Part shown: in pieces, positions 1 to 33,154 of the stretch
Numbering within the stretch: the stretch's first letter is position 1
Layout: the number at the start of each line of letters is the position of its first letter
Source: Bacteroidaceae bacterium
Lineage (GTDB): Bacteria > Bacteroidota > Bacteroidia > Bacteroidales > Bacteroidaceae
Direction of reading: 5' to 3'
DNA: 33,225 nt
Assembly: GCA_024401165.1 (NCBI GenBank)
Contig: JAKSLN010000016.1
Location: 1-33,225, forward strand
Made by a program: the position numbers and the translations under genes
Notes under the pieces: model-generated
The model's database searches: none
What the model was told of the DNA's origin: nothing
What the model saw: the letters and a program-made list of their open reading frames with translations, nothing else

Positions 1-674
1 TGGCCTTCCTCATGTTCGGAGGCCTGTTCCTCGCTTCATGTAGCAAGGACGAAGAAATTGACCCCACCATCACCATCGACTTCGAGGGCGAGTACTGGAA
101 CAAGTTGATTGACAAGGAGCAGTACGGTGGCAAGCTTATCTACAGTGCAGACGAGTACAAGTGGACAGATGCAGCAACCACCCTCAGTTCGGAGGTTGTC
201 AAGGAAGACTGGGGCGAATATGGCATTGGTTGGAAACATGGCTTTGCCATCTCTAATTATGTTAACCCCGATGCCAAGGACTTCAATGAGCAGCTCTCTG
301 TACGCAAGGCTCAAGGCAACTTCGCCGTTGCCTTCGACAACAACAGTACCCTGACATTCGCTGACGGCAAGGAGCACGAGATTGTTTCCATCGACCTGTC
401 GCCCGTTGCCTACGCTTACAATTTGATGAAGAAGGCTTGCGGTCCTGACTATTCATTCCAGGTCATCCTTACCTTTGAGCAGGCTGACGGCAAGAAGATT
501 CAGTCTAAGATCGATATCGCCAAGGACGAGGTCGTACAGGAAGGCTTCCTCAAATACCTCTTCGGCGTAAAGGCAAAGAGCATCGTCTTCACCTTCGATG
601 GATCTGACAAGGGTGAGTGGGGACTGAACACTCCCAAGTACATTGCTATTGACAACATCGTCGTCAAGCCCTAA
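1..674 (+). CDS. DUF4465 surface lipoprotein, BtuH-like (5' end cut by window)
   Basis: The reading frame is open back to base 3, and the first visible residues (AFLMFGGLFLASCSKDEE) are the end of a lipoprotein signal peptide, so the true start lies upstream of the window. The lipobox Cys is at 39-41. It is followed by SKDEE, an acidic stretch like the Bacteroidetes lipoprotein export signal, which suggests display on the cell surface. The mature part (about 200 residues) matches DUF4465: an early GWKHGFAISN segment and a C-terminal block ending GLNTPKYIAIDNI. DUF4465 includes BtuH, a surface B12-binding lipoprotein of gut Bacteroides. The next two genes are BtuG-like and BtuB-like, 6 and 7 bases apart, so one operon is likely. 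Family assignment is strong; B12 as ligand is inferred from context. Confidence 0.8.
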   Translation, partial: AFLMFGGLFLASCSKDEEIDPTITIDFEGEYWNKLIDKEQYGGKLIYSADEYKWTDAATTLSSEVVKEDWGEYGIGWKHGFAISNYVNPDAKDFNEQLSVRKAQGNFAVAFDNNSTLTFADGKEHEIVSIDLSPVAYAYNLMKKACGPDYSFQVILTFEQADGKKIQSKIDIAKDEVVQEGFLKYLFGVKAKSIVFTFDGSDKGEWGLNTPKYIAIDNIVVKP

Positions 675-680
675 GAGTCC

Positions 681-2714
681 ATGCAACTCACTGGATACAA
701 GCATACAGCAAGGCTCATCCTGACACTCGTCGGGATGAGTCTCTTGCTTTCTGCCTGTGACCTGGCAGAGGCAAACTTCCTCGAGGAACATTTTCAGACT
801 ACGGGCAAGGGCGTGCTCGTCCTCTGCGAGGGGAACTTCAACAGTGGAAACGCCTCTCTATCCTACTATGACACCGAGGCGAAGAAGGTCGAGAACGGAG
901 TCTTCCGACGTGCCAACGACCGCAAACTGGGCGATACGGGCCAGTCCATCACCACTTTTGATGGTATGGCCTATATAGCCGTCGAAAACAGCGGCATCAT
1001 CTGGAAGATGAACACTCGAACATTCCGCGTCGAGGGACAACTGACAGCCGGCCAGACCGAGCACATGATCAACCCACGCTATGTCCACCTCGTCACCTCC
1101 GAGAAGGCCTACGCCACCGACCTCTATTCCCCCTACATCACAGTCTTCAACCCCAAGACGATGCAGTACATCGGCAGCATTGCCACGGGGCAGCACCTCA
1201 CGAACGGATACGCCTCGACGGAGGAGATGGTGCAGGTGGGCCACGAAGTCTTCACTAACTGCTGGTCATACAGCCGCAATATCCTCATCATCGACACCGA
1301 GAAGGACTGCGTCACTGACAGCATCCAGCTCCGCAGCTGGCAACCCAAGTCGATGGTCGTGGATGCCAACGAGAAGCTATGGGTCATTACTGACGGTGGC
1401 TACGAGGATGCCGTAAGTCCGTCGACGATAGGAAACGACCGTCCCCACCTCTACCGCATCGACCCTCACACGCGCAACGTGGAACTGGATATCACGATGC
1501 AGACTGACGAGAGTTTGGTGCAGATAGCCCTTTCACCCGACAAGCACAGCTTATACATCTTAAATAACGACGTTTACCGCATGGACGTCACGGTCGCAAA
1601 CTTGCCAGAGAATCCCTTCCTGCTGGCACCACTTGACGACAAGGGCAAGCGCCACAAGCTCTATGGCATCGACGTGAATCCTGTCAACGGTGAGATTTAC
1701 CTGGCTGACGCCGTGGACTACCGGCAGGCAGGCGTTGCCTATCGCTACAGTCCTGACGGTCAGCTTATTGACCAGTTCCGCGTAGGCATCCTGCCCAACC
1801 ACTTCGCCTTCACCGACGCTGCCACCGACATTCCTGGCGAGTGGCATGACAAGGAGGAGGACTTGCTGCAGCTTGCGCTCGTCGACACCGTTTTTGAGTA
1901 CATGCCTGCTCCCGGACACCAAGTGAACGGATACTCCGTGGTGGGCGACTTCATCCACGATGGCGCTACCATGCAGGAGGCGTGCCAAGAGGTCATGCGC
2001 CATTGGCAGAACCAGTGGATGGTCAGTTTGGGTGGACAGGGTGGCTACGTCGTGGCGGGATTCAGCGAACCCGTCCAAAACACCAACGGTGACTACGAGC
2101 TGGCCATGAAGGGCAATCCCTATAGTTACCAGTCAGAACCCGGCATCGTGTGGGTCAGCATGGATGAGAACAACGACGGACTGCCCAACGACCCTTGGTA
2201 CGAGTTGGCTGGCAGCGAATACGGCACCGACAACGAAACCCTAGGATACGCCATAACTTACTATAAGCCAACCACCCCCGGAAGCGACATACACTGGACC
2301 GACAACCAGGGTGGCGAAGGAATCATCCCTTACATGGCAGCCTGGAACGAGCATCCCTCCTATTGGCAAGACTGGGTTCCGACCGAGCAGAACGAGCAGG
2401 GTGAGGAGTACCACACCTACTACGGTTCGCGTCTCAAGGATACTCACACCTATGAGGACGGTTACACATTCGAACCACCCTTCGCCTGGGGATATGCAGA
2501 CAACGACGGTAGCGACTACTTCCGCAATCCTGCCGTCAACGCTTCCGGCATGCTGACTTACTTCAAGATTTCCAACGCCGTCAAAGCCGATGGTTCGTCC
2601 GCCAACCTGCCTTGCATCCACTTTGTCAAAGTGCAGACGGGTCAGACGGGCTGGTCTCCCAATCTGGGTGAGATCAGTACTGAGGTACACGGCATCTGGC
2701 GAATAAAACGATAG
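681..2714 (+). CDS. BtuG-like YncE/DUF5074 beta-propeller lipoprotein fused to a C-terminal surface domain
   Basis: The 677-residue lipoprotein has its lipobox LLSAC with Cys26. Residues about 40-390 form a YncE/DUF5074-type propeller that starts GVLVLCEGNFNSGNASLSYYD and has repeated short blades (for example residues around KSMVVDANEKLWVITDGG). From about residue 403 a second domain begins. It contains GFSEPVQN, then PGIVWVSMDENNDGLPNDPWYELAGSEYG, and ends in a beta-rich block. That second domain is familiar from separate 'cell surface proteins' beside B12 receptors in Bacteroides. BtuG binds cobalamin on the outside of the cell and caps BtuB. The start codon lies 6 bases after the previous stop, and the BtuB-like gene follows 7 bases after this stop. 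The ligand is inferred from the gene order; a different chelate or metal cofactor is possible. Confidence 0.75.
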   Translation: MQLTGYKHTARLILTLVGMSLLLSACDLAEANFLEEHFQTTGKGVLVLCEGNFNSGNASLSYYDTEAKKVENGVFRRANDRKLGDTGQSITTFDGMAYIAVENSGIIWKMNTRTFRVEGQLTAGQTEHMINPRYVHLVTSEKAYATDLYSPYITVFNPKTMQYIGSIATGQHLTNGYASTEEMVQVGHEVFTNCWSYSRNILIIDTEKDCVTDSIQLRSWQPKSMVVDANEKLWVITDGGYEDAVSPSTIGNDRPHLYRIDPHTRNVELDITMQTDESLVQIALSPDKHSLYILNNDVYRMDVTVANLPENPFLLAPLDDKGKRHKLYGIDVNPVNGEIYLADAVDYRQAGVAYRYSPDGQLIDQFRVGILPNHFAFTDAATDIPGEWHDKEEDLLQLALVDTVFEYMPAPGHQVNGYSVVGDFIHDGATMQEACQEVMRHWQNQWMVSLGGQGGYVVAGFSEPVQNTNGDYELAMKGNPYSYQSEPGIVWVSMDENNDGLPNDPWYELAGSEYGTDNETLGYAITYYKPTTPGSDIHWTDNQGGEGIIPYMAAWNEHPSYWQDWVPTEQNEQGEEYHTYYGSRLKDTHTYEDGYTFEPPFAWGYADNDGSDYFRNPAVNASGMLTYFKISNAVKADGSSANLPCIHFVKVQTGQTGWSPNLGEISTEVHGIWRIKR

Positions 2715-2721
2715 GAAAGAC

Positions 2722-4719
2722 ATGAGACAGGGAGTACTGATGTTCCTGACCTTCGTCCTCTCGCTCGGACTTCGGGCGCAGGACCGCGTGCTGAAGGAAG
2801 TGGAGATTGCCGCTTCCCGCCGCATGAAGGACACCGGACTCGAACAAACCGTGCTCGACACTACTGTACTCCACCAGAATCTGGCTTACTCCATGGCCGA
2901 CATTCTGCAGGGAAACACCACCTTATTTATAAAAAGTTACGGAAGGGCGACGGAAAGTACAGCCGAGTTTCGCGGCACCAGTCCCAGCCACACACAGGTG
3001 ACATGGAATGGCATGAAGATCAACTCCCCCATGTTAGGCACCGTCGACTTCTCCTACATTCCTGGGCACTTTGTAGACCAGGCCACATTGCTACATGGAG
3101 CCTCAAGCATCAACCTCACCGGGGGTGGACTAGGCGGCGCCATCGAACTCACCACGCAACCTGAGTGGGGGCGCGGTTTCGGTGCGCAGTTCACTCAGGG
3201 CGTCGGTTCCTACGGCACCTTCGACGAGTTTCTTAAGTTCACCTTCAGCAACGAGCGCTGGAGCAGCAGCACGCGCTTGTCCTACGGGCATAGCAAGAAC
3301 GACTTCTCCTACACAAACTACGACAAGAAGGTCGACGTGCGCGACGAAAGCGGTTCCATCGTTAAAAGTTACCATCCTACAGAGCGCAACCAAAGCGGCT
3401 ACTTCGACGACGTCAATGCCATGCAGGACGTGGTCTACCGCGACGGCAAGGGCAACCGCCTCGGTGCCACCGTCTGGTACGGATACAGCCTGCGCGGACT
3501 TCCCTTCCTTTCCGTCGATTATAAAGATAATAGCGACTTCACAAACGAACACCGGCAGCAAAACGTCCGCAGTGTACTTTCCTGGCGCCACACCCGCTCC
3601 ACCTGGATGCTCGACGTCAAGGGAGGCTACCTCTACCAAGACATCGACTACAACTATTTCACTCAACGCGAGCAGATAAGCAACGAAATAACACACAGCC
3701 GGAGCTACACGCAGACGGCCTATTTGCAGGCAAATTTCGACTGTTTCCCCTCCCAGCGCCTTCAGTTCTGCGCCAGCGCGTCGGGTTACTACAACCACGT
3801 GCGTAGCTGGGACCGTAGCCCCTTCCACATCGGCGACAACTACAACTTGGGACGTGCAGAAGAAAGTCTTGCGCTCTCTGCCAAGTGGCGCCCCCTCAAC
3901 CCGCTCACCTTCAACATCGTGGCACGCGAGGAGGTCTACGGCCAGCGTTTCGTACCCCTCATCCCCGCCATCTTTGCCGACGTGGTCTTATACCGCCCCT
4001 GGAACTTGGTACTGAAGGGCTCCGTTGCCCGCAACTACCGATATCCTTCCATGGACGACCTTTACTTCCAACCTGGGGGAAATCCTTCTCTCCAACCCGA
4101 ACGAGGTTTCACCTACGACGGCGGCATCGAACTGAATGTCAAGAAGAAGAGGCATAGCATACAAGGCAGCATCACAGCCTTCGACTCACACATCAGCGAC
4201 TGGATACTCTGGACGCCTAATCAAAAGGGATACTGGATGCCCTCCAATGTCAAAAAAGTCCACAACTACGGCGTCGAGGCACACGCTGAATCTCACATAA
4301 CCATCTCGCCCGACTGGCACCTCACCCTCAGTGCCAACTACGCCTACACACCCTCCATCAACCGCGGCGAGCAGGTCAACACAAATGATGCCTCCTACGG
4401 CAAGCAGCTCTGCTACGTACCCCTCGTCTCTGCCAACGCCAACGCACGCCTCCAATGGCGCCAATGGACCCTTACCTACCAGTGGATTCACTACGGGCGT
4501 CGCTACACGACCACGAGTAACGAGGTGGAGCACATTACCGGTGAACTGAAGCCCTACTACATGAGCAACGCTTCACTTGAACGAAACTTCCAGTTGCGAC
4601 GCCTGCGCCTTTCTGCCAAGGCCGTAGTAAACAACCTCCTCAACAACCACTACGTCACCGTCCTCTCCCACCCCATGGCTGGCATCAACGGCGAGTTGTT
4701 CTTCGAAATTAGATACTAA
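2722..4719 (+). CDS. TonB-dependent outer-membrane receptor, BtuB-like
   Basis: The 665-residue protein has a short signal peptide ending LRAQ. Just after it, RVLKEVEIAAS could serve as the TonB box, followed by a plug domain (about residues 35-150) with ADILQGNTTLFIKSYG, TAEFRGTSPSHTQVTWNG and INLTGGGLGGAIEL. The remainder is a beta-barrel rich in alternating aromatic strands, ending in FFEIRY with a terminal Tyr as usual for outer-membrane proteins. It lacks the N-terminal carboxypeptidase-like domain of SusC, and its length is that of BtuB/FepA-type receptors. It is the third gene of a tight run with BtuH-like and BtuG-like lipoproteins, which makes cobalamin the most likely cargo. A siderophore or other metal chelate cannot be excluded from sequence alone. 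Confidence 0.8.
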   Translation: MRQGVLMFLTFVLSLGLRAQDRVLKEVEIAASRRMKDTGLEQTVLDTTVLHQNLAYSMADILQGNTTLFIKSYGRATESTAEFRGTSPSHTQVTWNGMKINSPMLGTVDFSYIPGHFVDQATLLHGASSINLTGGGLGGAIELTTQPEWGRGFGAQFTQGVGSYGTFDEFLKFTFSNERWSSSTRLSYGHSKNDFSYTNYDKKVDVRDESGSIVKSYHPTERNQSGYFDDVNAMQDVVYRDGKGNRLGATVWYGYSLRGLPFLSVDYKDNSDFTNEHRQQNVRSVLSWRHTRSTWMLDVKGGYLYQDIDYNYFTQREQISNEITHSRSYTQTAYLQANFDCFPSQRLQFCASASGYYNHVRSWDRSPFHIGDNYNLGRAEESLALSAKWRPLNPLTFNIVAREEVYGQRFVPLIPAIFADVVLYRPWNLVLKGSVARNYRYPSMDDLYFQPGGNPSLQPERGFTYDGGIELNVKKKRHSIQGSITAFDSHISDWILWTPNQKGYWMPSNVKKVHNYGVEAHAESHITISPDWHLTLSANYAYTPSINRGEQVNTNDASYGKQLCYVPLVSANANARLQWRQWTLTYQWIHYGRRYTTTSNEVEHITGELKPYYMSNASLERNFQLRRLRLSAKAVVNNLLNNHYVTVLSHPMAGINGELFFEIRY

Positions 4720-25243: not shown

Positions 25244-25276
25244 TTTTGGTACTATAAATAAAAAGATGTATATTTG
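25244..25276 (+). promoter_or_regulatory. Promoter of susC
   Basis: TTTTG (25244-25248), a 20-base spacer and TATATTTG (25269-25276) match the Bacteroidetes consensus. The predicted start is near 25282, leaving a short A-rich leader of about 36 bases before the ATG at 25318. Confidence 0.8.
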
Positions 25277-25317: not shown

Positions 25318-28300
25318 ATGAAAAAGAACTTTATCTGTCTGTTGGGACTGGTTGCCATGACCGTAACTCCAACCATTCCCGCACAAGCTGCAGGCAGCCA
25401 AACCACCGTGTTGGCTCCTCAGAACACGAAAAAAGTAAAGGGCCGCATCGTCGACGCTGACGGACAGCCCATACCAGGTGTCAACATTTTGGTGAAGGGC
25501 ACACAGACCGGTGCCTCGACCGACATGAACGGAGGCTTTAGCGTCGACGTGGCCGACGGTGCCATGCTGCGCATCAGCTGCATTGGTTTTGCCACACAGG
25601 AGCTTAGAGCGCTTGACGGAATGATTGTCACCCTGGAAGAGGACGCCAAGTTGATGAATGAGGTTGTCAGCGTGGGTTACGGCAGCATGCGCCGCAAAGA
25701 CGTTACCAGCGCCATCACTACCGTACAGGCAGAGGACTTGAACAAGGGTGTCTTCACCGACCCCGCGCAGATGTTACAGGGCAAGGTGCCCGGACTCGTT
25801 GTGAGTTCGACAGGCGACCCCAATGGTGGTGCCACCATCACCCTGCGCGGTGCTAGTTCGCTTCGCACCGGTGCCATGAGTCCCTACTACGTCATCGACG
25901 GCATCCCAGGCGTTGACATCTCCATGGTTTCGGCCGACGACATCGAGAGCATTGACGTGCTGCGCGATGCTACAGCAACCGCCATCTACGGTTCGAAGGC
26001 TGCCAACGGCGTCATCATCATCAACACCAAGAAGGGAAGCAAGGACCACACCAACGTGACCTACAATGGTTACGTGGGATTTGACAACGTGCTGAAGACC
26101 TACGACATGGCCAATGCTCAGGACCTGCGCGACTACGCCAGCAAGAATGGAGTCTCCTTGAAGGATGGAGGTGCCAACACCAACTGGCAGAATGAAGTGC
26201 TCCGCACCGGCATCAGCCACAACCACAATTTGGGCATCAACGGCGGCAATGGTACAACGACCTACATGGCAAGCGCAAACTATATGGACCGCCAGGGTGT
26301 AATCAAGGAGACCGGCATGCAACGCTTCAACCTGCGTTCTTTGGTTAGCACCAAGATTCTGAAGGATCACCTGGAACTGGCTATCGGTTCTAACTCGATG
26401 TACGGTCGCCATTTCGGCGTTCCCTACAACAACGAGGGTGGTTCTGTCCTGGACGCGATGAACTACTTCTCGCCCACCAACCCCATCAAGAACAATGATG
26501 GCAGTTGGTCCACCGGTTCGGGATCGAAGAACTACAACCCTCTTGCCCTGATGTACGAGGACACTTCGGAGAACATCTGGAAGCGCAACCAATTCACAGG
26601 CAAGGCTAAGGTGAACATCGTGGAGGGCTTATCGTGGACAACAGACTATAGTTGGAGCAACTACCAGAACAACTATAGCGCCTACGACACACGCCACTCT
26701 CAGTTGGAGGGTGTCGGCAACAAGAACGGACAGGCAACCCGCAGCACCCGCTTTGGCAAGGAGCAGAGTTTGGAGACCTACATCAACTGGGATGTCAAGT
26801 TCGGCTTGAACAAATTGGGTGTGATGGCAGGTTACTCGTGGGAGGAGATGAACCGCAACGAGGGCTTCGGCGTTACCGTTCAGGAGTTCTACAACGACAA
26901 ACTAGGATGGAACAACCTCTCATACGCCAGCAACATTCTGGGCATCAATTCCGTCAGCAGCGGTTTCGTTGAGAACATACGCAACATATCATTCTACGGT
27001 CGTATCAACTATTCATGGAACAGCCGCTACAACATGCAGGCCACCATCCGCCGCGACGGTTCATCCGTATTTGGCGAGAACAATCGTTGGGGAACCTTCC
27101 CCTCGGTAAGTGCAGCTTGGAACATCACCGAGGAGGACTTCATGAAGGAGCAGGAGATTCTGACAAACCTGAAGTTGCGCGCTGGTTACGGTATCAGCGG
27201 TAATGCCATGGGCTTCGACCCCTATTCAAGCAGTGTTACCTATGGTGCTACTGGAATCTTCGAGTATGACGGCCACAAGTACCGCACCTACGGAGCTACC
27301 AAGAACGCCAATCCCGATCTGAAGTGGGAGAGCACCGGCATGCTGAACATCGGTCTTGACTATGCCTTCTTGGGTGGCCGCATCAACGGCAGCATCGAAT
27401 TCTACAACAAGAAGACTAAGGACCTCATCTGGACCTACCCTGTCAGCACCACCGTATATCCATATGGTTGGATTGACGCGAACGTAGGTGAGATTACTAA
27501 CCGCGGTATTGAGTTCAGTATTAATGCTGACGTCATCAAGACCAAGGACTTCACTTGGAACACCACGCTGAATCTCTCCCACAACATGAATCGAGTAGAC
27601 AAGCTTTCTAACGACGTATATAAGACCACAACCTTTACCCAGGGAGACCCCATGGTGGCTGGCATTTCTGCCGGTGGATGGACTCAGCGCATCATCGAAG
27701 GTGAACCTCTCGGTACCTTCTACACCTATGAGTTTGCAGGCATCGTAAATGGTCGTTCTGAATATTATGTGCACGATGCTGAGGGCAACCGCACAGGTGC
27801 GACGACCAACAATCCGCAGATTACAGACCGCGTCATCACCGGTTGCGCACAACCTAAGTTGAACGCAGGCTGGAACAACACTCTCACCTACAAGAATTGG
27901 AGTCTGAACGCCTTCATCACTGGCGTATTCGGCAACGACGTCTACAATAGTGCACGTGCTCACTACACCAGCGCCCAGATGTTCTCGGACGGCAAGAACG
28001 TGATGAAGGAGTTCCTCGACATGCCAGGCGGCGATGCTACCAGTTCTCTGCCTTCGGACAGATGGATCGAAAAGGGCACTTACATCCGTCTTCAGACTCT
28101 GTCGTTGAGCTACACCTTCCGCGACTGTTTTAATGGTTGGATCAACGACCTGACTCTGTACGGAACAGCCAACAATCTGGCGACCATCACCGGTTACAAG
28201 GGTCTCGACCCCGAAGTAAACATGGGTGGCATCGATCCCGGTATCGACTACCGCTGGAGCCGCTATCCTCATGCTCGCACCATGATGGTGGGCGTGAAGA

Positions 28301-28689
28301 TTAACTTTGGCGCAAACAACAAGAAGAAGGCGGCTCAGCCAATCATTGTGGAGCGCGAGGTGATCCGCGAGGTTCCTGTTTCAAAGGAGGTTGTTAAGGA
28401 GGGGGCATCAAGCCTCGTGCAGAAGACCTACGTTGTAACCTTCGAGGTTAACAAGTCTGAGATTGCCAACCCTGCTGAGTTGGACGGCATCCCCGCAGGT
28501 GCTACCGTCGACGTTGTAGCCTATGCCTCTCCCGAGGGTGCTGCGGAGTACAACATGGCTCTTTCACAGCGCCGTGCCGATGCAGTTGCCGCCTACCTAA
28601 GAGCAAAGGGCGTAAAGGTTGACCGCGTAGAAGCAAAGGGTGCTGACAGCGAGCATTCAAACCGCATCACCATTGTAACTGTCAAGTAA
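25318..28689 (+). CDS. SusC/RagA-type TonB-dependent transporter with a C-terminal OmpA-like domain
   Basis: The 1123-residue protein has a signal peptide ending PAQAAG. A carboxypeptidase-D-like domain (about 40-120, KGRIVDADGQPIPGVNILVKGTQTGASTD) leads to a plug domain (VVSVGYGSMRRKDVTSAI, VIDGIPG, IYGSKAANGVIII) and a large barrel. The barrel ends near VGVKINFG (Gly998), where SusC proteins normally stop. Here the chain continues with a basic/charged linker (1002-1036, including EREVIREVPVSKEVV) and an OmpA-like domain (1038-1123: TFEVNKSEI, VDVVAYASPEG, NMALSQRRADAVAAYL, NRITIV). In that domain the diaminopimelate-binding Asp of E. coli OmpA (D241) is replaced by Ser1071, while the matching Arg (R256) is kept as Arg1086. 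SusD follows 51 bases downstream. Confidence 0.93.
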   Translation: MKKNFICLLGLVAMTVTPTIPAQAAGSQTTVLAPQNTKKVKGRIVDADGQPIPGVNILVKGTQTGASTDMNGGFSVDVADGAMLRISCIGFATQELRALDGMIVTLEEDAKLMNEVVSVGYGSMRRKDVTSAITTVQAEDLNKGVFTDPAQMLQGKVPGLVVSSTGDPNGGATITLRGASSLRTGAMSPYYVIDGIPGVDISMVSADDIESIDVLRDATATAIYGSKAANGVIIINTKKGSKDHTNVTYNGYVGFDNVLKTYDMANAQDLRDYASKNGVSLKDGGANTNWQNEVLRTGISHNHNLGINGGNGTTTYMASANYMDRQGVIKETGMQRFNLRSLVSTKILKDHLELAIGSNSMYGRHFGVPYNNEGGSVLDAMNYFSPTNPIKNNDGSWSTGSGSKNYNPLALMYEDTSENIWKRNQFTGKAKVNIVEGLSWTTDYSWSNYQNNYSAYDTRHSQLEGVGNKNGQATRSTRFGKEQSLETYINWDVKFGLNKLGVMAGYSWEEMNRNEGFGVTVQEFYNDKLGWNNLSYASNILGINSVSSGFVENIRNISFYGRINYSWNSRYNMQATIRRDGSSVFGENNRWGTFPSVSAAWNITEEDFMKEQEILTNLKLRAGYGISGNAMGFDPYSSSVTYGATGIFEYDGHKYRTYGATKNANPDLKWESTGMLNIGLDYAFLGGRINGSIEFYNKKTKDLIWTYPVSTTVYPYGWIDANVGEITNRGIEFSINADVIKTKDFTWNTTLNLSHNMNRVDKLSNDVYKTTTFTQGDPMVAGISAGGWTQRIIEGEPLGTFYTYEFAGIVNGRSEYYVHDAEGNRTGATTNNPQITDRVITGCAQPKLNAGWNNTLTYKNWSLNAFITGVFGNDVYNSARAHYTSAQMFSDGKNVMKEFLDMPGGDATSSLPSDRWIEKGTYIRLQTLSLSYTFRDCFNGWINDLTLYGTANNLATITGYKGLDPEVNMGGIDPGIDYRWSRYPHARTMMVGVKINFGANNKKKAAQPIIVEREVIREVPVSKEVVKEGASSLVQKTYVVTFEVNKSEIANPAELDGIPAGATVDVVAYASPEGAAEYNMALSQRRADAVAAYLRAKGVKVDRVEAKGADSEHSNRITIVTVK

Positions 28690-28740: not shown

Positions 28741-30357
28741 ATGAAAAAGAATAAATTGTTCATCACCGCCGGACTCATGGCACTTGTCCTGACCGGCTGT
28801 ACAAACCTCGATGTCAACATTGACTCACAGTACACCGAGGACCCCAGCAAGGAAGGTGGCGTTGACCCCATGCTGGTCGTTGAGGCTAAGATGGCCGACG
28901 TATATTTTCACCTGAGCGGATGCCTTGGACGTCGCTACATGGAGGCACAGGCCCTCTCATCTGACGAGTTCACAGCACTGGCATTCGATGGTGGATACTA
29001 CGACGATGGTACCTACGCACACACCGCCCTGCATTGCAACACCGCCGAGGATGCCACACTGGACTGGTACTCTGACGTTACCGCCGGCATCACCAAGGCC
29101 AACCAGATCCTGGAGGAGCTGGGCAGCGGAGCATCTCCCCAGATGACGGCACCCGCACGTGCCATCCGTGCCTACTTCACATGGATATTGATGGATAGCT
29201 TCGGCGACACTCCCATCCTGGACAAGATTCCCGCCGAGGGAGAGGTCGTACAGCGTTCACCCCGCAAGGACGTGGCCCTGTGGCTTGAGAAGGAGCTGAA
29301 CACCGTCATTCCACAGCTGACTACCGATGTTAACGCCAACACCTATGGCAAGCCCACCCGTTGGATGGCCGAGGCTCTGCTGGCTAAGATCTACATCAAC
29401 TGGCCCGTATACACCGCCGACGCTGTCGAGAACTACGATGCAGCAACTGCCGTAAACGAGAAGCTGGAGGACTGTAAAGCCCTCTGCGACGACATCATCG
29501 AGTGTAAGGAATTCAACCTAGGATCTATGGAGTACCGCTTCAAGTTCGCTCCCGACAATGGTCCCCAGGTCAAGGACTTCATCTACGCCATGCCTTACGA
29601 CGCCATCGACCGTCAGGGCATGCAGTATGCACGCCCCCGCAGTTTCAAGCAGCTCAAAAACATGCTGCCCAACTACTATGGATCGAGCGAGAAGTTCACA
29701 CAGTCGTTCGGTGGCAACATGGTGGTTACTCCTGAGTTTGCCGAACTCTTCTCACTCGAGGGCGACCAGCGCAACCTGAGCGTGCTGGCAGGTGACGTCT
29801 TCAATCGAGACCCCAAGACTTTGCTCCCCACCGACGAACCCTTCATGTACGAGGGCAAGCAGGTTAACTTCAGCAAGAAAATAAACCTCATCAAGCAAGA
29901 CAACACCATCGATGTAGGTGGCGACGGCATCCAACAGGGTTACCATTCTATCAAGTGGTTCATCGTGCCTAACGACTACAACAACGGCCGTAACCAGAGT
30001 AACGACGTGCCCATCTTCCGCTATGCAGACATCTTGCTGACCAAGGCTGAGGCATTGGTTCGCAACGGTGAGACTGGTGCCAAGGAACTGTTCAACCTGG
30101 TTCGCGCCTATGCCAAGGCTCCCTTGCTCACAGCCGAACCCACTCTGAAGGACATCCTCGACGAGCGTGGTCGCGAGCTCTTCGACGAGAACTGGCGTCG
30201 TAACGACCTCATCCGCTTTGGCGAGTTCGAGGGTCAGTTCTTCCCCCACTACACCAGCTTCCCCGATGCCAACTTCGACAAACGTCACCGTATCTTCCCC
30301 GTGGAGAAGGAGATGCTCGACCTAAACGAAGGATGGAAGCAGAACCCTGGCTACTAA
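28741..30357 (+). CDS. SusD/RagB-type outer-membrane glycan-binding lipoprotein
   Basis: The protein has 538 residues from the ATG at 28741 (MKKNKLFITAGLMALVLTGC, lipobox with Cys20). An upstream in-frame ATG at 28720 lies inside a simple repeat and is rejected. SusD hallmarks are helical TPR-like segments, the N-terminal TNLDVN, the internal AIRAYFTWILMDSFGDTPI, the RWMAEALLAKIYINWPVY region and the C-terminal IFRYADILLTKAEALVRNG, ELFDENWRRNDLIRFGEF and RIFPVEKEMLDLNEGWKQNPGY. It caps the SusC barrel and binds the incoming oligosaccharide on the cell surface. The pair shares an operon that ends at the terminator 30438-30474. The sugar specificity is not readable. Confidence 0.96.
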   Translation: MKKNKLFITAGLMALVLTGCTNLDVNIDSQYTEDPSKEGGVDPMLVVEAKMADVYFHLSGCLGRRYMEAQALSSDEFTALAFDGGYYDDGTYAHTALHCNTAEDATLDWYSDVTAGITKANQILEELGSGASPQMTAPARAIRAYFTWILMDSFGDTPILDKIPAEGEVVQRSPRKDVALWLEKELNTVIPQLTTDVNANTYGKPTRWMAEALLAKIYINWPVYTADAVENYDAATAVNEKLEDCKALCDDIIECKEFNLGSMEYRFKFAPDNGPQVKDFIYAMPYDAIDRQGMQYARPRSFKQLKNMLPNYYGSSEKFTQSFGGNMVVTPEFAELFSLEGDQRNLSVLAGDVFNRDPKTLLPTDEPFMYEGKQVNFSKKINLIKQDNTIDVGGDGIQQGYHSIKWFIVPNDYNNGRNQSNDVPIFRYADILLTKAEALVRNGETGAKELFNLVRAYAKAPLLTAEPTLKDILDERGRELFDENWRRNDLIRFGEFEGQFFPHYTSFPDANFDKRHRIFPVEKEMLDLNEGWKQNPGY

Positions 30358-30538: not shown

Positions 30539-33154
30539 ATGTTGACACAAGAAGACAAAGGGACGAATCATGACAAGCATGCACGTTACCACAACACGCT
30601 ACTACACGATTGGCTCGTACTCCTCACTCTTTGCCTTTCGATTACCAGTTCCTTTGCTCAGCAAACTACGGACTATGTCGACCCACGCATCGGAAGCGAG
30701 GGACTGGGACGCGTGTTCATCGGTCCCTGCATGCCTTTCGGCATGGCCAAGCCAGGACCAGACTGCGGTGTGGGCAACAACGCCGGATGGGCACCGATGC
30801 CGGCACTGGTCTCGGGCTTCTCCCAAACGCATGTCAGCGGAACGGGAGGAGGCCCCAAGTACGGCAACATACTCATCCGTCCCTTCAAAGGCGAAGACCA
30901 GCACCGTGCCACGGAACACATCGAATTGGGCAAGTACACCTGCACTTTCGAGGAAAGCGGCATCAAGGCAGAGGTGACAGCAGGGCGCAAGGTTTCGTTC
31001 TACCGCTTTACCTTCCCCGAGGGAATGAAGCCGTACGTCGAGGTGGACCTGCAGCACTTCCTAGGACGCAACCCTGTACCCAAGGTTCGCGAAGCACAGC
31101 AATTCGAGGGGGCAAGCATGGACTCCACGCAACAAGCGGATGGCCTCTATGCCTACCACGGTCAGCAGATCATCAGCGGCGGTTGGAACAACGGCAAGCC
31201 CTATACGGTGTATTTCTATCTTGCTCAGCACAAAGCCGATGCACACACCTTACTTTGCCGCGTAGGCATCTCCTTCATCAGCGAGGAGCAAGCCAAGCAG
31301 AACTGCCAGATGGACCTCCCAGGATGGGACTTCGATGGCACCTATCAAGATTGCCTCGGCGAGTGGCAGGCACTCCTCTCACGCCTTCCCATCAGCAACG
31401 AGGCAAGTGAACGCGTAAAGCGCATGTACTACACCGCCCTCTACCACATGTGCCTGATGCCTACGGACAGAGAGGAAAGTCTCAAGCCTACGGGTAGGAA
31501 AGAAAGCTCCACACATGCTCCCCGAGTGGAAGACTACGACGACTATTATGCCATATGGGATACCTACCGCACCTCCACCCCATTGCTAAGCCTCCTGGCA
31601 CCAGAACGCGCAACGGCCATAGCCCAGTCGCTCCTCAACATCTACAAGAAAGACGGCTTCCTGCCCGATGCCCGGAGCGGCAACTCGAACGGCAGGACGC
31701 AAGGTGGCAGCAATGCCGAGATAGTTCTGTGCGACGCCCTGGCACGCGGCCTCGACATCGATGCCGACCTGGCTCTTGAAGCCATGCTCAAGGATGCCAC
31801 CGTTGCCCCCGAAGACGACGAAGCCGAAGGCCGAGGTGGACTGGCAGAGTACAACAGCCTGGGCTACATACCCTATATAAATAGAGGGGAGCGCATCCCC
31901 CGTGCCGGCAACCGTACCGTGGAGTACGCCTTCTGCGACTGGGCCATTGCCGAAGCTGCCAAGATAATGAAAGAGCGCAAGCTATCCAACCGTTGGAGCG
32001 ATGCCGAGCTCGACGCCATTTACAAGCAATACATGCTGCAGAGCCAACGCTGGAAGAACCTCTGGCGCAGCGACTACGAGCATGATGGCGCACGTGGCTT
32101 CATCATGCCGCGCGACGAGCAAGGCAACTGGCTTGACGACCTGCCCTTCGGCCACAGCAAGGCACGTCCGATGACCTTCCGCTATACGCCCGACGTCTCG
32201 TACGAAGGCCCCTGGTACTGCAAATGGTGGGACTGCTTCATGTACGAAGCCTCATCATGGGAGTACTCCTTCAGCATCCCTCACGACATCCCCGGCCTCA
32301 TCGAACTATGCGGTGGCAAGGAGGCGTTCGAGACTCGTCTGGACACTTTCTTCGCCCATGGTTACTACAACGTTGCCAACGAGCCGTCCTTCCTCACGCC
32401 CCTACTCTACCACTGGGTAGGCAAGCCCGAGAAGTCGACAGCCCTTGTCCGCAAGATCATCGAGGAGAACTTCAACGACCAGCCCAACGGCCTCCCTGGT
32501 AACGATGACGGAGGTGCCATGAGCTCGTGGCTGGCCTGCCATCTGCTAGGCATGTATCCCCTGGCCGGAACCAAAGAATGGATCAAGTATGAGCCCTTGT
32601 GGAAGGGCGTCTGCATCAGAGACAGCGTCAACACGCCCGACCCAGAACCTGCAAAGCCCAACACCTTCCTGGCAAAGTTCTCCTTGCACGGCCAGACGCG
32701 ACGCTTCTACCTCGACACACGTTACGACCTGGAGACCAAGCAAGCTATCGTGGACTGGCGCATCCAGCGCAACCTCAAGTGGTGGAAGGGCAGCTATACG
32801 ATGCGCAGTTCCTCTATCCATAACGGCCGGCGTCTGTGCTATGAGCAGCCCTTCGACGGACAGCATATCCTGGTGCCAGATGACCAGACTTTCCTCTTCC
32901 TATCCGATCTTGCCTTGGCAGACCTGCGCCGCGTAGACGGCGTGCTGCAGGGCACTATGCAATACGATGACGTCCGATGGACATTGATTGACGAGGACAC
33001 CCTTCCGTCATGGAGCGACCGGGCCTCCACACTCCATTTCCGCAGCGAAGAAGGTGCAGAGATGTGGGTGGTTGTGGGACTCTTCTGTCCCTTGGTAGTC
33101 AAGATGCAAGACAATCCCCATGAGATAGATTGGGAGATAACCTATAACCCATAA
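30539..33154 (+). CDS. GH92 alpha-mannosidase, exported
   Basis: The 871-residue protein has GH92 signatures: YVDPRIGSEGLGRVFIGPCMPFGMAKPGPD, GFSQTHVSGTGG near the N-terminus; IWDTYRTSTPLL; RTVEYAFCDWAIAE; NEPSFLTPLLYHWVGKP; and LPGNDDGGAMSSWLACHLLGMYPLAG, where Asn655-Asp656-Asp657 corresponds to the catalytic-base/calcium loop. GH92 enzymes are calcium-dependent, inverting exo-alpha-mannosidases that trim mannan or N-glycans. The signal peptide is unusual: about 25 polar residues, including His-rich HDKHARYHN, precede the hydrophobic core (LVLLTLCLSITSSFAQ). No nearer ATG is available, and the promoter position supports this start. Its position behind susCD suggests that the imported glycan contains alpha-mannose. 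Confidence 0.93.
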   Translation: MLTQEDKGTNHDKHARYHNTLLHDWLVLLTLCLSITSSFAQQTTDYVDPRIGSEGLGRVFIGPCMPFGMAKPGPDCGVGNNAGWAPMPALVSGFSQTHVSGTGGGPKYGNILIRPFKGEDQHRATEHIELGKYTCTFEESGIKAEVTAGRKVSFYRFTFPEGMKPYVEVDLQHFLGRNPVPKVREAQQFEGASMDSTQQADGLYAYHGQQIISGGWNNGKPYTVYFYLAQHKADAHTLLCRVGISFISEEQAKQNCQMDLPGWDFDGTYQDCLGEWQALLSRLPISNEASERVKRMYYTALYHMCLMPTDREESLKPTGRKESSTHAPRVEDYDDYYAIWDTYRTSTPLLSLLAPERATAIAQSLLNIYKKDGFLPDARSGNSNGRTQGGSNAEIVLCDALARGLDIDADLALEAMLKDATVAPEDDEAEGRGGLAEYNSLGYIPYINRGERIPRAGNRTVEYAFCDWAIAEAAKIMKERKLSNRWSDAELDAIYKQYMLQSQRWKNLWRSDYEHDGARGFIMPRDEQGNWLDDLPFGHSKARPMTFRYTPDVSYEGPWYCKWWDCFMYEASSWEYSFSIPHDIPGLIELCGGKEAFETRLDTFFAHGYYNVANEPSFLTPLLYHWVGKPEKSTALVRKIIEENFNDQPNGLPGNDDGGAMSSWLACHLLGMYPLAGTKEWIKYEPLWKGVCIRDSVNTPDPEPAKPNTFLAKFSLHGQTRRFYLDTRYDLETKQAIVDWRIQRNLKWWKGSYTMRSSSIHNGRRLCYEQPFDGQHILVPDDQTFLFLSDLALADLRRVDGVLQGTMQYDDVRWTLIDEDTLPSWSDRASTLHFRSEEGAEMWVVVGLFCPLVVKMQDNPHEIDWEITYNP

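Follow-up and report, generated by a model that had tools for sequence, protein, structure and literature searches.

The SusC transporter and its C-terminal extension

SusC-SusD importers are a main route of glycan intake in gut Bacteroidota. To our knowledge, their position in the envelope with respect to cell wall and TonB is an open question in the field. In a Bacteroidaceae bacterium (assembly GCA_024401165.1, contig JAKSLN010000016.1) a susC-like gene on the forward strand (positions 25318-28689) does not end with its barrel, but encodes an additional OmpA-like domain. What might such a domain do at the end of a glycan importer, and where does it come from? We analysed the whole stretch of 33,225 nucleotides, which we call the window.

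The gene is a single open frame of 1123 amino acids with a TAA stop at 28687-28689. TIGR04056, the NCBIfam model of SusC/RagA transporters, matches residues 38-997 over its complete length (model positions 1-981 of 981) with 743.9 bits against a cut-off of 368.25, and the Pfam families of the TonB plug (PF07715; residues 126-232, 25693-26013) and the barrel (PF00593) scored above their cut-offs, too. A probable signal peptide (residues 1-25, 25318-25392), recognised by eye, and a CarboxypepD_reg N-terminal extension (residues 40-117, 25435-25668; PF13715, above cut-off) precede the plug. The remaining part of the TIGR04056 match, mostly barrel, reaches to Phe997 (26014-28308), the stop site of two unfused orthologues. 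All sequence features of the family that we tested are present, and judged by them the product is a SusC/RagA-family transporter. It shares with this family the CarboxypepD_reg, plug and barrel regions, an adjoining SusD partner and a nearby glycoside hydrolase (GH) gene. Unlike the unfused orthologues of the same genus, which end at the last barrel strand, the protein runs on for 126 residues.

This tail consists of a charged linker (about residues 998-1035, 28309-28422), resembling that of stand-alone OmpA-type proteins, and of an OmpA-like domain (about residues 1036-1123, 28423-28686). PF00691 (OmpA) was matched at residues 1062-1110, scoring 35.3 bits (cut-off 27.2; E 1.5e-8), the match spanning only profile positions 32-80 of 98. 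Profile comparison of the tail with ten OmpA domains picked from related genomes yielded 97.9% over 62 columns. Furthermore, residues 1082-1094 contain the sequence LSx2RAx2Vx3L, a motif that an excerpt of PMC5053529 describes for OmpA_C domains that bind peptidoglycan. Pfam score and motif together place the tail in the OmpA_C domain family; we do not file it under the peptidoglycan-binding OmpA/Pal type because one of the two site residues differs. The original prediction had described a SusC-type transporter with a charged linker and an in-frame OmpA-like domain, read in one continuous frame up to 28689. The profile matches confirm this, its coordinates and residue numbers are correct, and near 28310 there is neither a stop codon nor a frameshift.

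Two-domain OmpA proteins carry a small barrel at the place where the window protein has SusC. An OmpA-like part is also present in some other proteins of membrane or envelope, namely TraB, TpgA and PorE (NCBIfam) and the PsaB chain 7f4v_aB, but none of them is a SusC importer and the matches cover the OmpA part alone. In the photosystem I protein PsaB (PDB 7f4v, chain aB, 872 residues) it is residues 786-832 that match the tail profile, so that another membrane complex ends in this way. Both component families of the fusion are known. In the literature searched, which did not extend to most subscription papers, we found no description of a SusC with an OmpA-like end, and searches on strain iA622 (see below) and on Gloeobacter PsaB returned nothing. 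A review is said to survey the domain structures of TonB transporters in Bacteroidetes and may mention such a fusion.

Recurrence of the fusion

We searched named genomes with the tail profile (A1) and two short peptide patterns, a scan that reached close relatives only, and obtained 37 loci with the tail. Their records are named Prevotella, Segatella, Prevotellaceae, Bacteroidaceae or Bacteroidales, and many of the names indicate rumen, omasum or faeces. An open reading frame was readable in 35 of these loci, spread over 31 genomes; L069 and L100 were dropped for lack of one. In L069 (JAUNIC010000057.1) the tail lies behind a run of N, which makes an assignment of the barrel impossible. The 35 tailed frames comprise 27 orthologues of the window gene, seven tails on very different SusC proteins and one tail at a contig edge. 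In the SusC part, the 25 full-length orthologues are 70-74% identical to the window gene and the two cut ones 77% and 81% over the part present, compared to 24-29% for the seven divergent proteins. A SusD gene follows in 25 of the 27 orthologues, the other two loci ending just past the gene, and is the neighbour in all six divergent copies checked (of seven). A gene of family GH92 lies inside the retrieved stretch in 13 of the 27. OmpA scored above the Pfam cut-off in the eight proteins concerned, namely the seven divergent ones and that of Segatella copri strain iA622. The record of this strain is not labelled as a metagenome-assembled genome and was taken as an isolate. Another species of the window's genus (G028) has the same fusion with different genes upstream and again SusD downstream, and the fusion occurs in other genera as well.

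The fusion is more than a chance event because it recurs in 35 open reading frames of named genomes; a survey of SusC homologues for this extension had been proposed along with the prediction. An assembly error or frameshift joining a susC to an ompA-like gene would fit a window that is the whole contig of a draft genome with 80.7% completeness. However, the same fusion is found in many separate assemblies, including the Segatella copri record. This recurrence rules out a chance match, and we regard an artefact as exceedingly improbable.

Surveys of whole taxa counted tailed frames that had the length of a SusC or were truncated at a contig edge; several genomes occur both in the genus and family surveys and in the named-genome scan, so that the counts are not independent. 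Among the matches listed, a tailed SusC is present in at least two of 139 genomes of the window's genus. In the family the number was three of 399. The genus of genome G499 contains it in ten of 200 genomes, including one frame cut at a contig end and one divergent copy outside the SusC-model testing, and the genus of G413 in one of 58; in one more genome of the latter the tail follows a gap. Only the window's own tailed SusC appeared among the best 10 or 11 candidates per genome in the order (393 genomes, E 1e-14) and in the phylum (395 genomes, E 1e-8). The figures for the window's genus, order and phylum are lower bounds with respect to weak matches. Within single genomes, three of 16 SusC matches are fused in G1003 and one of 29 in G499.

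Some long frames with an OmpA match turned out to be other proteins. Those of G117 and G045 were rejected as SusC by eye. In G117 (L145:1894-5925, contig 17), a frame of 1343 amino acids has a topoisomerase-III-like start, to which a PorE-like protein containing an OmpA domain is seemingly joined; the two names are our assumption by eye. In L146 the two genes stand side by side, and the join may be due to a lost stop or an assembly error. The frame of over 900 residues found in G1378 by the phylum search (L199:1225-4866) encodes a repeat protein of 1213 amino acids (EIPAEY..DKPAET type) with an OmpA-like end in which the Asp is kept. None of 40 pattern matches in viral contigs was a relative. 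Two plasmid records showed 39% identity over 60% of the query and are annotated as OmpA family protein.

Orthologues without the tail and stand-alone relatives

The genomes G061 and G115 of the window's genus contain unfused orthologues (66% and 63% identity) in the same order susC-susD-GH92. Their SusC proteins end with ..AKINF and ..AKIAF followed by the stop codon, while the window protein reads ..GVKINF and continues. Two further, distant orthologues (48%) also stop at the last barrel strand, in line with the expectation of the original prediction that SusC proteins normally end there. A careful barrel tree places the fused rows on one side of a branch with 51/76 support, but a grouping of the window gene with the two unfused orthologues was not rejected (p-AU 0.546) and an earlier quick tree needed two changes. 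These trees leave undecided whether the fused orthologues are one clade with a single origin of the tail in the orthologue group.

The nearest relatives outside SusC, among the matches listed, are stand-alone proteins of about 360-395 amino acids with 45-57% identity. Like the tail, they contain an OmpA domain with the sequence SPEG and, before it, a linker made of EK/EV repeats, but have an N-terminal part of their own, a putative small barrel, instead of a SusC transporter. In a profile comparison linker and domain both align with the tail (99.7% over 109 columns). A tree of 28 stand-alone and 36 fused sequences puts the fused tails on a branch of their own, with 100/100 support for the split. 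The idea that the tail replaces a stand-alone OmpA is unsupported, since three of ten fusion genomes of one genus (G957, G1027 and G1078) also hold a stand-alone match.

The SPEG site

In the profile alignment Ser1071, the first residue of SPEG (residues 1071-1074, 28528-28539), sits in the conserved column of the peptidoglycan-contacting Asp, and Arg1086 (28573-28575) retains the conserved Arg of the OmpA_C site. According to an excerpt on Acinetobacter OmpA, Asp and Arg are both critical for the binding of diaminopimelate (PMC6572160). OmpA of E. coli and Acinetobacter and Pal share the OmpA_C domain by sequence profile and the Arg with the tail, but have Asp instead of Ser at the diaminopimelate site, and the first part and the last loop of the tail are shorter. 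SPEG and Arg1086 are invariant in the 34 fused tails of alignment A3; L081 and L096, which are outside this alignment, read SPEG as well. Lys1107, Asp1110, His1113, Asn1115 and Arg1116 are invariant in the fused tails, too, as is Glu1073 two residues after Ser1071.

All 28 stand-alone relatives, the best non-fused matches in the window's genus that became loci, also read SPEG. Since SPEG is found in 28 of 28 stand-alone and 34 of 34 fused sequences, Ser for Asp is, by sequence, the standing form of the nearest OmpA subfamily, and a change from Asp to Ser together with the fusion is ruled out. The exchange of Asp241 of E. coli OmpA for Ser1071, with Arg1086 kept, had been predicted correctly, but as an alteration it is not tied to the fusion. 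Among 30 other OmpA-domain matches from eight genomes, none of them a fused SusC, Ser is the rarer form: the column contained 26 Asp and four Ser, and the Arg was present in all 30. Ten of these 30 are rows of profile A5, the comparison set that reads Asp in ten of ten rows, was drawn largely from motif hits and omitted two Ser rows (L133, L138). The three of these 30 that come from the window's own genome all have Asp. The four matches with Ser and Arg (L128, L133, L136 and L138) rule out that Ser is unique to the tail subfamily, and the variant seems to be recurrent in this group. The region between the first strand and SPEG is shortened, as predicted: from the first-strand Phe to the site we counted 30 residues (Phe1042-Ser1071), compared to 36 in a canonical domain of the same genus (L113) and 32 in a stand-alone relative (L005), the Phe being matched by eye.

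Probable exchange between susC genes, and selection on the tail

In three genomes with several fused copies, barrel identity is just 25-36%, the upper value being based on no more than 305 residues, but the tails are 81-89% identical at the DNA level. In the pairs with alike tails on unlike barrels (L064/L065, L068/L070 and L090/L098) the DNA match sets in within the linker, at 119-122 residues from the end, and extends to the stop codon or up to five bases beyond. L090/L098 show two more short DNA matches in the barrel, and the match of L064/L066 extends 38 bases past the stop. By its barrel, L090 groups with the window's orthologues (73%), and this barrel is 29-30% identical to those of the other two fused SusC proteins of its genome. 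In the DNA tree the L090 tail clusters at 99/99 with both other tails from that genome, and the tails of L090 and L098 stand together at 100/97 in the protein tree. These patterns suggest that the unit of linker and domain was repeatedly copied or gene-converted between susC genes. The DNA tree does not unite the three tails of UBA1746; therefore exchange within genomes is not the whole story. The tail identity of 0.07 for L184 reflects a one-residue register shift at the end; the DNA tree was built on the alignment.

The median ratio of nonsynonymous to synonymous changes (dN/dS) was 0.13 for the OmpA domain and 0.16 for the linker, compared to 0.11 for the N-terminal part with the plug and 0.073 for the barrel. 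The comparison covered 300 pairs among the window gene and 24 orthologues, 25 sequences in all and with L096 and the cut rows outside the set; synonymous changes were near saturation. By this measure the tail is under purifying selection, though less constrained than the barrel.

Genomic neighbourhood

A SusD-like lipoprotein gene (28741-30357, forward strand; PF07980, 106.3 bits) starts with an ATG 51 bases past the susC stop, and a GH92 glycoside hydrolase gene (30539-33154, forward strand; PF07971 and PF17678) follows. By its genes the SusC-SusD system is a predicted outer-membrane glycan importer. Because it adjoins the GH92 gene, its substrate is probably a mannose-containing glycan. Upstream of susC we noticed by eye a promoter-like sequence, TTTG, 20 bases and TATATTTG (25245-25276, forward strand), which ends 41 bases before the start codon and has what we take to be the Bacteroidota form. 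Only one of the eight SusC genes in the window's genome has a tail (counted from SusC match rows, two of which belong to a single split gene). Six SusC matches meet a stop at the barrel end; for the genes C95 and C126, whose ends were not reached, a tail search of the genome found no second SusC tail. At the start of the window (12-4719), DUF4465 and DUF5074 genes are followed by a TonB receptor of 665 amino acids, a set of the kind known from vitamin B12 uptake loci.

A possible tether for a glycan importer

It is established for SusC barrels that their C-terminus lies in the periplasm, and the tail should be located there, too, as already proposed in the prediction. On balance we read it as a periplasmic tether of a GH92-linked glycan importer, with either peptidoglycan or a protein as the probable partner. 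In other cases a flexible linker and an OmpA_C-type domain in the periplasm form a link to peptidoglycan. With a linker of about 38 residues, the OmpA-like domain could reach the cell-wall layer and would hold the importer at the wall, most likely by a peptidoglycan contact through a non-canonical site of Ser1071, Glu1073 and Arg1086. The tail as a whole, whose nearest relatives are the stand-alone OmpA-type proteins within this bacterial family, may have been passed as a cassette between susC genes. Excerpts of PMC11658791 report that ExbD binds peptidoglycan and that TonB may be anchored in this way during its work; it would make sense for an importer held at the wall to stand beside an ExbD held there, too. 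We give a peptidoglycan tether of this kind about an even chance. Several points weigh against it. The diaminopimelate-site Asp is Ser in every tail examined. The domain is small, with a reduced first part and a short loop ahead of its last strand, so its pocket may differ. We found no binding data for the stand-alone proteins with SPEG, and for their N-terminal part, a putative small barrel, Pfam gave no more than a sub-threshold match in one of two proteins. Moreover, the tail is presumably not needed for import as such, because closely related importers lack it.

Alternatively it might be that the tail docks on a periplasmic partner common to several importers, such as TonB-ExbBD, another OmpA-like protein or an assembly factor, the loss of the Asp having freed the site. 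Ser in place of Asp throughout tails and stand-alone proteins, the invariance of SPEG, Lys1107, Asp1110, His1113, Asn1115 and Arg1116 in the tails and the presence of the tail on several unrelated SusC proteins in one genome would agree with this. On the other hand, the tail retains Arg1086 and the OmpA_C motif, its closest relatives belong to the OmpA type, and no partner was identified; we consider such docking possible but rather unlikely. The similarity of tails within a genome, with rather sharp borders, and their patchy presence in three genera (at least two of 139, ten of 200 and one of 58 genomes, or two with the cut copy) could also be explained by a cassette that spreads by recombination between susC genes and has little function of its own. 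Low dN/dS, invariant residues and presence in 27 orthologues make such a passenger improbable, and the tail-scoring matches that lack a SusC-length frame in the genera of G413 and G499 sit at contig edges or a gap. Very improbable, finally, is a role in biogenesis, by which the tail would move the last strand off the C-terminus and delay assembly or route it as for OmpA: the unfused orthologues do have a Phe at their very end, which is that of the last strand, but we know of no role of the OmpA periplasmic domain in barrel biogenesis.

Returning to the tether, we tentatively propose, at somewhat less than even odds, that linker and SPEG-type OmpA domain are an exchangeable anchoring cassette. 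It would be carried by up to three unrelated SusC-SusD systems per genome, its copies would be kept alike by gene conversion, and the importers would thereby share one fixed periplasmic site. If true, this would be a level of organisation of glycan uptake for which we found no description in the literature searched. The tail shows how a module can move between importers within one genome. Nature provides a set of orthologous importers of which some have a wall-type tail and others lack it, and a named strain holds one of them; with this set the placement of these importers in the envelope becomes directly testable.

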